Source: a bacterium (GTDB taxonomy: Bacteria > Vulcanimicrobiota > Vulcanimicrobiia > Vulcanimicrobiales > Vulcanimicrobiaceae). Taken from it: a DNA stretch of 64,000 nt. The DNA lies in contig JAJYCL010000004.1 of assembly GCA_021778415.1 (NCBI GenBank), forward strand, positions 1 to 64,000. The letters run 5' to 3'. Below are positions 37,310-46,036 of the stretch, in pieces (the stretch's first letter is position 1; every line of letters starts with the position of its first letter). The notes under the pieces are model-generated. The model made no database searches, was not told where the DNA came from, and saw only the letters and a list, made by a program, of their open reading frames with translations. Position numbers and translations under genes: made by a program.

Positions 37310-37396
37310 GCTCGGGTGGCGGAATTGGTAGACGCGCTGGTTTCAGGTATCAGTGATGGCAACATTGTGGGGGTTCGAGTCCCTTCCCGAGCACCA
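37310..37396 (+). tRNA. tRNA-Leu, anticodon CAG
   Basis: The 87-nt sequence folds as a class II tRNA: acceptor GCTCGGG (37310-37316) pairs with CCCGAGC, followed by an encoded CCA. The anticodon stem-loop CTGGT-TTCAGGT-ATCAG places CAG at the anticodon, a long variable arm follows, and GGTTCGAGTCC is the T loop. The TGGCGGAATTGGTAGAC D-arm is characteristic of tRNA-Leu. A TTGCAG/GAGAAT pair upstream with a 17-base spacer is a possible promoter. The short open frame running through the gene is an artefact. The 3' end lies at the border of the accessory region. Confidence 0.97.
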
Positions 37397-42882: not shown

Positions 42883-42962
42883 GGTAGGTGGTAGTATCGT
42901 GAAAAGGCCTCCGCTCCTCAATGGGAAAACCCTCAAAGTTCCCTAAAACGGTGGTGATTTCG

Positions 42963-44399
42963 ATGTCGCAGTATTCATTCGGCCCTTATCTCCTAGATGC
43001 CGAGCAGCTTTTGCTCACCTGTCACGGCGAGCCCGTGGCCCTTGGTCCCAAGGTTGTCGAAACGCTTTTAGCCTTGGTCGAGCATCCCGGCGAAGTGCTG
43101 TCGAAGCGCGCACTGTTGGAACGCATCTGGCCCGAAGGCTTCGTCGAAGAAGCGAATCTTGCGCAGAATATCTATGTGTTGCGTCGCGAATTACGGGCGC
43201 ATCTGCCCGGCGACGTCATCGGAACGGTCTCGCGCAGAGGGTATCGATTTGTCGTCCCTGTGACGTGCTCGCAGCGCGGTCCGCTGGCCGAACCGAGTGT
43301 TGCCGCGTTTTCCGAGACGCCCCGACGTTTTCGATTCCGGCGACTCGCCCTGGCCGCACCCGCGGCGCTCCTCGTCTTTGCATTGGTGTTCGGCTATGCA
43401 TGGAACGCACGCGCGCATGTTGCGACGCCTGCACCGCCCCAACTCTCATCGGCTGGAGCCAGACTGTATGCCATCGGTCGTTACTACTGGAACATGAGAA
43501 CTGCGGCCGGCTTACAGCAATCGCTGTCCTATTTCCATCAAGTCGTTGAACTCGATCCGACGAAAGCGCAAGGCTATGCAGCGTTGGCCGATGCAAACGT
43601 GCTGCTTGCCGATTATCAATTCGGACCGCTTGCTCCCAAAGTCTATGTTGCGCGGGGCGAAGCGTATGCAAAAAAGGCGCTCGCTATCGATCCATCTTCG
43701 GGCGAGGCATTAGCCGCACTCGGACTCGTTTCGATCTTGCATCATAAGATGGCCGAGGCTCGCACTTATCTTCAGCGGTCGATCACCGCCGATGCAAGCT
43801 ACGCCCCGGCGCACGAATGGTATGGCATCGTTCTTTTGCATGATGGCAATGCCGCAGCGGCATTTTCGCAATTACGCACAGCCGCGCAGGAAGATCCGCT
43901 TTCAACGGCAACCTTGTTGTGGCTCGCGCAGGCGGCCTATTCCGAACATCATTACGCGCAAGCTGTTGGATATTCGCGGCAAGGTATCGATTTGCGCACG
44001 CGAGGCGCCGGTATCGGTGATGACGATTTCTATGAAATACTCGGTATGTCGCAAGAAGCGCAAGGCCAATACACGCGCGCATTAGCGACGTATGAAACCT
44101 ACGGGCGGCTATGTAAGTGCCCGGCGTCGTTAGATGCTTTGCGAGCTCACGTCTTTGCTTCAATGCACCAAGCCGGGCGTGCCCGTGCTTCTCTTGCGCA
44201 TGCGACGATGGCGGCCAAAGGCGCACAGGGTGCAGCATACGATATTGCAGCTGCTCTACTCGCGCTAGGCGATCGTACGAAGGCCTTGCAATGGTTGCGC
44301 CGGGATCCGAATTCTGCCGTTGCAGCGCGCATCGATCCGCGTTTTGCCGCGCTTCATCGGGACGCGCATTTCAAAGCGTTGCTAAAAACCGCATCGTAG
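42963..44399 (+). CDS. CadC/ToxR-type winged-helix regulator with TPR domain
   Basis: A 478-residue membrane-bound regulator. The N-terminal OmpR/CadC winged helix (SFGPYLLDAEQLLLTCHGEPVALGPKVVETLLALVEHPGEVLSKRALLERIWP) is followed by EEANLAQNIYVLRREL and RRGYRFVVPV. A membrane helix at about residues 123-145 (LALAAPAALLVFALVFGYAW) separates it from an extracytoplasmic TPR array (YAALADANVLL, LAALGLVSILHHKMAEA and repeats). It senses something outside and acts on DNA directly without a phosphorelay. It is divergent from the outer-membrane protein, which may be its target. ATG 42921 is an alternative start. Confidence 0.87.
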   Translation: MSQYSFGPYLLDAEQLLLTCHGEPVALGPKVVETLLALVEHPGEVLSKRALLERIWPEGFVEEANLAQNIYVLRRELRAHLPGDVIGTVSRRGYRFVVPVTCSQRGPLAEPSVAAFSETPRRFRFRRLALAAPAALLVFALVFGYAWNARAHVATPAPPQLSSAGARLYAIGRYYWNMRTAAGLQQSLSYFHQVVELDPTKAQGYAALADANVLLADYQFGPLAPKVYVARGEAYAKKALAIDPSSGEALAALGLVSILHHKMAEARTYLQRSITADASYAPAHEWYGIVLLHDGNAAAAFSQLRTAAQEDPLSTATLLWLAQAAYSEHHYAQAVGYSRQGIDLRTRGAGIGDDDFYEILGMSQEAQGQYTRALATYETYGRLCKCPASLDALRAHVFASMHQAGRARASLAHATMAAKGAQGAAYDIAAALLALGDRTKALQWLRRDPNSAVAARIDPRFAALHRDAHFKALLKTAS

Positions 44400-44406
44400 T
44401 TTCGTC

Positions 44407-44769
44407 GTGATTGCTCAACTCGATCCGCAAACGCGGGAGCTGGTTGCCGCGCTGGTTTCGTTGCTCAACGGTTGTGAACATTGACTCGATAAGCATTGCG
44501 CCTCGGGTAGGCGCGCCGGACTCGATGATGCAACGCTCGATGCGATCTCCGATTACGCGCGCAGCGATCGGTTCTCTCCGGCGCAACGGGCCGCGCTTTC
44601 GCTCTGTGTTTCACTCACGCGCGAGCCTCGCGCCGTGCCTCCGGCGATTATTGCCTCTCTGCGCACATTTTATGAGGAGAAAGCTATCGACGAATTGATC
44701 CGAGAAATCGCGCGCGTGAATGCAGCGAATCGGATCGAAAACGCTCGGGCCTCGCTTACGAGTGCATGA
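44407..44769 (+). CDS. AhpD-like selenoprotein candidate (CxxU)
   Basis: Read through an in-frame TGA at 44482-44484, this frame gives a 120-residue carboxymuconolactone decarboxylase/AhpD-type protein: DPQTRELVAALVSLLNGCEH-U-LDKH, then FSPAQRAALSLCVSLTREPRAVP and NAANRIENA, all family-like on both sides of the TGA. The TGA is at residue 26, exactly the second Cys of the NGCxxC motif. Spacing fits Mycobacterium AhpD: Glu11, Cys23, His25, Sec26 and His30 correspond to Glu118, Cys130, His132, Cys133 and His137. A SECIS-like hairpin follows at 44498-44514. AhpD-like proteins act as thiol-dependent peroxidases or reductases. The start (GTG 44407) makes the N-terminus short for the family, and there is no clear ribosome binding site, so coupling to the regulator upstream is likely. 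The alternative is a nonsense mutation. Confidence 0.7.
44498..44514 (+). promoter_or_regulatory. bacterial SECIS-like hairpin after in-frame UGA
   Basis: GCGCCT (44498-44503) pairs with AGGCGC (44509-44514) around a five-base CGGGT loop. The stem begins 13 bases after the TGA and its loop about 19 bases after it, within the window in which bacterial SECIS elements work, and the loop has G at its second position, which SelB-type elements favour. It sits inside the coding region, as bacterial SECIS do. Formally just a hairpin, but its placement supports selenocysteine insertion. Confidence 0.6.
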
Positions 44770-46036
44770 GTAGGCGTTCCGTCCGGATAAGGCGTGTTTT
44801 TGAGAGGGAATCGTGGATGAGGATGCGTCCGCGGAAAAGCCCGACAATCGCGACGACGGGTATGAGTGCGAGACCGACAAAATAGCGCCACATAATGGTG
44901 AGAAATGAGGGTTGCGTAAAATCCGGTGTGACGACGCGCAATCCCGTAATGATCATGCCGAAACTTTGACCGGTTAAACCGACGAGAAAAACAAGATACA
45001 GATAGAGACTTATCGCAAACAGAACATCCGATGCGTGGTTCGCGTTCGACGATATGGTATGGCTTGTTGAGGGTAAAATCAGCACTCTGTTGATGATCGG
45101 CTTAATGGTTGAAAGTAACGATCCCACAAGAATCGTGTCGATGAGGAGCGCGAGAGCACGCCGACCGAGTCGGGTGCAGTCGGCGCGTTCAACCACTCGC
45201 TCCACAATGTCGGATGAACGCGCCAGCGCATCGCGCTCGGAAAGAAACCAGGCATCCGCCTCTTCAAAGAGTCGCGAGTCTGCAAACGAGCGAAGTTCGC
45301 TGATGCGCTGCGTTGCATAGGGTTCACCGCTAAGCCATTGCCCCCACTTCAAGACCGAGTCCCCTGCGATTTCACGCCCTTGTTCGGCAAACGCATTGAG
45401 CTCAACACTGCGTCCGAAGCGATGAAATGCTGCAACGGCAATCGCGCGACGCGCGGATTCAAACGAACCGCAGGCGAGCAAACCAACCCGATCACAGGTG
45501 AGTTCGCAGCGACGTAACCATGGCCCGAATATAAACGAAACGAGAGCGTTCTCTCGTCCCGTCACTGAGAGAAGTGAAAGATAACGCGCATGGCCTGCGG
45601 CGACATGCGCAAGTTGTCGCCCGATATGAAAGGCCAATTCATCGTCGCGAAACTCTTCCAGCCATTTCACCGAAAAAACGAGGGCGTAAGGCTCGCCGAA
45701 CCCGTGAATGGTTATCGGTGTGAGATCGTCGTCGCGCACGAAAACGAGCGGCATCGGCAATTCCAACGCCGTTGCGCAGCGTCGTACGATAGAAAACAAC
45801 TGCTCGTGTTGCGCCTCATGAATGCGCACCGATGAACCGAGCAGGCGCCCGCGAGCGAGCGTAACGTAGACCATAGCGGCCACGACAAACAGCGCGACCT
45901 GCGCTTCTCCAATAGTTTCGTGGGCAAAAGCAGCAATGATTCCTGCGATCGGCAGTGCCCAAAGCAGGCAGAGGCCAAAAGCTAGGCGTTCGCCACGAAT
46001 GCGAAGCGAGAGCGGGCCGGAGAAGAGCGGATGCAC
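44756..46036 (-). CDS. M48-like degenerate peptidase fused to an RDD membrane domain
   Basis: A 426-residue membrane protein. The N-terminal part has two hydrophobic segments and an M48-type metallopeptidase-like domain; the zinc helix, normally HELGH, reads RQLAH (residues about 140-144 in DELAFHIGRQLAHVAAGH), so the first His and the catalytic Glu are gone. The C-terminal part is an RDD domain: LGRRALALLIDTILVGSLL, then LVGLTGQSFGMIITGLRVV. It is likely inactive as a protease. Its start lies 55 bases inside the end of the GGDEF gene upstream, and its 3' end overlaps the selenoprotein candidate by 14 bases, convergently. Confidence 0.75.
   Translation of the reverse strand: MHPLFSGPLSLRIRGERLAFGLCLLWALPIAGIIAAFAHETIGEAQVALFVVAAMVYVTLARGRLLGSSVRIHEAQHEQLFSIVRRCATALELPMPLVFVRDDDLTPITIHGFGEPYALVFSVKWLEEFRDDELAFHIGRQLAHVAAGHARYLSLLSVTGRENALVSFIFGPWLRRCELTCDRVGLLACGSFESARRAIAVAAFHRFGRSVELNAFAEQGREIAGDSVLKWGQWLSGEPYATQRISELRSFADSRLFEEADAWFLSERDALARSSDIVERVVERADCTRLGRRALALLIDTILVGSLLSTIKPIINRVLILPSTSHTISSNANHASDVLFAISLYLYLVFLVGLTGQSFGMIITGLRVVTPDFTQPSFLTIMWRYFVGLALIPVVAIVGLFRGRILIHDSLSKTRLIRTERLLMHS

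Follow-up and report, generated by a model that had tools for sequence, protein, structure and literature searches.

The gene considered here lies on the forward strand of a 64,000-nucleotide stretch of bacterial DNA (the window), between a gene for a predicted regulator of ToxR/CadC-like layout and a convergent gene for an RDD/M48 domain protein (Table 1). Read directly from its GTG, the frame is open to the closing TGA apart from one internal TGA at codon 26, in the motif NGC-E-H-U, where it stands as the final residue of a CxxC redox motif. The first-pass annotation of this DNA had proposed that the TGA replaces the second cysteine of NGCxxC and that both of its flanks belong to the same AhpD/carboxymuconolactone decarboxylase (CMD) family, and both proposals hold. 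The Pfam CMD profile (PF02627) matches across the TGA and includes both flanks (residues 4-65; E 1.7e-13; 50.8 bits vs a cut-off of 23), and the TIGR00778 model is also over its cut-off (43.1 vs 27.8). Two narrower models stay below theirs, namely TIGR00777 for AhpD proper (23.2 vs 191.95) and TIGR01926 for peroxidase-related enzymes (55.8 vs 81.8), on which a relative with a full N-terminus scores 77.1.

Table 1. Features at the AhpD-like locus (positions in the window)
Feature	Position	Strand	Remarks
Regulator gene: winged helix (Trans_reg_C), one transmembrane segment and TPR, ToxR/CadC-like layout	42921-44399	+	start may be 42963
AhpD-like (CMD family) putative selenoprotein gene	44407-44769	+	GTG start, one in-frame UGA, stop TGA 44767-44769; 120 aa
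Glu11	44437-44439	+	part of conserved active site with Cys23/Sec26
Cys23	44473-44475	+	first cysteine of CxxU
In-frame UGA (putative Sec26)	44482-44484	+	second active-site cysteine of CxxC, from homologue alignment
His30	44494-44496	+	part of conserved active site with Cys23/Sec26
Candidate bacterial SECIS hairpin	44497-44515	+	stem of 6 pairs and a U.G pair; the loop, CGGGU (5 nt), lies 19 nt past the UGA
RDD/M48 domain protein gene, convergent	44756-46036	-	overlaps AhpD 3′ end by 14 nt

The coding character of the frame is borne out by comparison with relatives: third codon positions are the least conserved against every relative compared, and the 13 residues that are invariant over all 30 aligned sequences are all present in the window copy. 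The set of proton-relay residues suggested earlier – Glu11, Cys23, His25, codon 26 and His30 – is found at the positions given for it, and Glu11, Cys23 and His30 are kept in most or all relatives, but His25 is not a feature of the family, this position being mostly Tyr. A promoter and terminator scan near the gene gave nothing better than chance, and an Rfam search of the window found a single tRNA gene (37310-37393).

The hairpin downstream of the in-frame UGA

A six-pair hairpin with a G-containing five-base loop had been reported to begin 13 nt after the TGA, and direct reading agrees, with stem strands GCGCCU (44498-44503) and AGGCGC (44509-44514), loop at 44504-44508, and a possible outer U.G pair (44497/44515). 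The published model of the bacterial SECIS element has a loop of 3-9 nt on a stem of 4-16 bp, with a G as the first or second loop base and the loop 16-37 nt from the UGA (PMC13188914); the window hairpin agrees in its 5-nt loop, its 6-7 pairs, the G at loop position 2 and the distance of 19 nt. Folding energy alone was dropped as evidence, as 15% of synonymous recodings that preserve the local protein sequence are equally or more stable, and the hairpin was therefore judged by in-register pairing and covariation. All seven pairs are kept in just 17 of 20,000 such recodings.

The hairpin lies in the same codon register in the window copy and 19 close selenocysteine (Sec) relatives. Among the window copy and its 13 closest UGA relatives (n = 14), 99% of cells are paired and two-sided changes occur in four of eight pairs, with a covariation score reached by none of 500 shuffles, a kind of comparison that is inflated by relatedness among the 14 sequences. 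When the partner strand is shifted by 1-3 columns, only 37-74% of cells are paired and the covariation score falls from 0.34 to 0.06-0.23. All eight pairs are also present in six further UGA relatives; the relatives' innermost stem pair (columns 23-27) is C.U in the window copy. In relatives with Cys at the corresponding codon only 37% of cells at the hairpin columns are paired, and the hairpin is lost.

Homologues in the phylum and the selenocysteine machinery of the host

Of the 149 genomes of the phylum that were searched, 63 encode related proteins, and 28 matches, from 27 of the genomes, have an in-frame TGA, every one of them at the CxxU codon; no second genome of the host's genus was found. 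In most other close relatives the same codon is TGC or TGT. The homologue alignment recommended in the first-pass annotation thus separates UGA forms, which carry the same hairpin, from Cys forms, which do not. The frequency of Cys orthologues in the phylum could be taken to mean that an ordinary Cys-type AhpD gene has acquired its TGA by nonsense mutation or through an error in sequencing, but other homologues share both the UGA and the hairpin, Cys forms lack the hairpin, and the genome has the full Sec machinery, so that a one-off event of this kind is very improbable. On a tree of 38 core sequences, Sec and Cys must have been exchanged four times or more, and well-supported branches force two of these changes.

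Several members of the family depart from these forms. Two proteins (L060 and L061, in G026 and G027) have lost the first cysteine and keep the second only (NSTPYC and NSAPYC), and their closest relative (L059) is CxxU. One syntenic gene (L039:1501-1818, in G080) has TCG (serine) at the Sec/Cys codon and is without the active-site His region (NDCRPSIVEY); judged from its sequence, its redox site has apparently been lost. Genome G081 has two different UGA-containing AhpD-like genes on two contigs (L031 and L070), of which the second may be contamination because it scarcely differs from the one in G065.

The proposal that this organism uses selenocysteine, on which the earlier reading depended, is supported by a family-by-family search of the host assembly (2.59 Mb, 61 contigs, 95.6% complete), which found selA, selB in two pieces, selD and tRNA-Sec. 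The selA gene (C8:41875-43185) is over its cut-off at 492.9 bits and is followed directly by an N-terminal piece of selB (the first 78 positions) that is cut off where contig C8 ends. A second piece of selB, covering positions 71-580, abuts an end of contig C59, and each piece is below the whole-protein cut-off. The tRNA-Sec is also on C59 (68.5 bits vs an Rfam cut-off of 47; anticodon UCA). The two contigs probably adjoin in the genome, with what looks like a single selAB operon broken by an assembly gap. The selD gene (G000:C12:85315-86238; L014:1501-2424) is over its cut-off at 352.9 bits and likewise contains an in-frame TGA, in SSCAG-U-AGK, which we take to be the usual Sec/Cys position of SelD; on this reading the SelD of the host is probably itself a selenoprotein. 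Across the phylum, selA scores above its cut-off in 121 of the 149 genomes, among them all 27 with TGA matches (Fisher p = 0.0025, kinship ignored). A general reassignment of UGA in the organism, for example to Trp, in which case codon 26 would not be selenocysteine, drew no support, and is extremely improbable given the dedicated tRNA-Sec with selA, selB and selD, the alignment of the UGA with Cys and not Trp, and the long neighbouring genes, which end at ordinary stops and have no internal TGA.

The shortened N-terminus and the upstream regulator

The short N-terminus raised as a caveat in the first-pass annotation is genuine: syntenic orthologues have about 24 further N-terminal codons, for helix 1, that the window copy lacks. 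The frame is not open before 44386, GTG 44407 is the sole possible upstream start, and 25 codons precede the putative Sec codon, vs at least 49 in relatives where the regulator stop overlaps a possible start of the AhpD gene. A complete CMD domain, including the first helix, is usual although not strictly defining, and the match here begins at profile position 19 of 84. A stray N-terminal helix encoded upstream in another frame was considered and rejected, as the DNA there encodes the conserved C-terminal end of the regulator. In the window the regulator has its conserved ending, at 44399, with 7 nt between its stop and the GTG of the AhpD-like gene.

Decay or a changed role of the window copy is retained as an option because of the missing codons, the lack of an obvious Shine-Dalgarno sequence before the GTG when inspected by eye, and its terminal branch, which at 0.93 is the longest in the tree. 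These same features would fit a former selenoprotein gene in decay, with the N-terminal helix deleted and the remaining frame not yet destroyed. We consider this unlikely, since about 120 codons are still open save for the UGA, the invariant residues and the coding-type codon pattern are kept, and the six-pair hairpin has been retained beyond what the protein sequence demands. Moreover, an AlphaFold model without helix 1 is confident (pLDDT 96.5), with Pseudomonas aeruginosa AhpD (7xw1) as its best PDB match (TM 0.88). We infer that the N-terminally shortened copy is functional.

The regulator gene is directly upstream of the AhpD-like gene in 26 of 30 relatives, and the convergent RDD/M48 gene is downstream in 23. 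In about 12 relatives the stop codon of the regulator shares bases with a possible start of the AhpD-like gene (GTGA or ATGA), an arrangement which suggests that the two genes are translationally coupled.

A probable selenoenzyme and its known relatives

Together, the frame, the position of the UGA, the conservation of the hairpin, the Sec machinery, the synteny and the predicted fold – all evidence at the level of sequence – make it very likely that this is a selenoprotein gene. UGA codon 26 would be decoded as Sec by the SelA, SelB, SelD and tRNA-Sec of the host, with the hairpin directing insertion. The predicted product is an AhpD-like protein of CMD fold, with a CxxU redox pair beside a conserved Glu and His. 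From this fold and active site it most likely acts in the cytoplasm, as a selenol/thiol peroxidase or a disulfide reductase; proteins of CMD fold cover other activities too, such as that of the debrominase Bmp8, so the substrate is not fixed by the fold. Co-expression with the upstream regulator is probable. More speculatively, a membrane-anchored regulator and a translationally coupled AhpD selenoenzyme could form an undescribed redox-sensing unit in this phylum, one whose enzyme has switched between Sec and Cys several times, with helix 1 lost by streamlining in the window lineage; we regard this as a tentative proposal, somewhat less probable than its opposite.

The type of enzyme is not new, as the first-pass annotation had recognised: CxxU selenoproteins of AhpD-like and CMD-domain type were described from Sargasso Sea and GOS metagenomes in 2005 and 2008 (PMC1088965, PMC2398784), and appear also in a 2026 review (PMC13188914). 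The window protein resembles these in belonging to the CMD/AhpD family, in having Sec second in CxxC with a SECIS candidate just downstream, and in having common Cys homologues. It differs in its host phylum, which is of Eremiobacterota type and is not named in the text of the review (PMC13188914), in the fixed pairing of its gene family with a winged-helix-TPR regulator, and in lacking the first helix. The AhpD structures of P. aeruginosa (AhpD/PA0269; 7xw1, 2ijc) and Mycobacterium tuberculosis (1knc, 1gu9) share its fold and the active-site arrangement around CxxC, but have Cys where the window protein has its putative Sec and retain the first helix; M. tuberculosis AhpD is also longer and structurally less similar. 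Searches of the open-access literature gave no paper on the use of selenocysteine or on selenoproteins in Eremiobacterota/WPS-2, and the host lineage, the fixed regulator pairing and the shortened front end of the window copy appear to be undescribed.

The presence of selA in so many of the genomes indicates that the potential for selenocysteine use is widespread in this phylum of uncultured bacteria. The syntenic gene pair allows Sec/Cys exchange and the gain and loss of SECIS elements to be traced inside one gene. Genes of this kind would be overlooked or broken in two by annotation pipelines for which UGA is always a stop.

NCBIfam models for AhpD-type selenoproteins match the window protein, although none is over its cut-off and the scores are far below: 56.8 vs 310 bits for NF053654 (YciW-related (seleno)protein), 28.3 vs 110 for NF041047 (GSU3128 family) and 15.4 vs 175 for NF041238. 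Five sequences (L062, L063, L064, L067 and L068) form a second, distant AhpD-like UGA subfamily in the phylum that is NF053654-like and scores much higher on that model than the window protein does, with 174.5 bits for a fragment. This subfamily has another hairpin, GCUGC-GGUCG-GCAGC, at nearly the same distance from the UGA.
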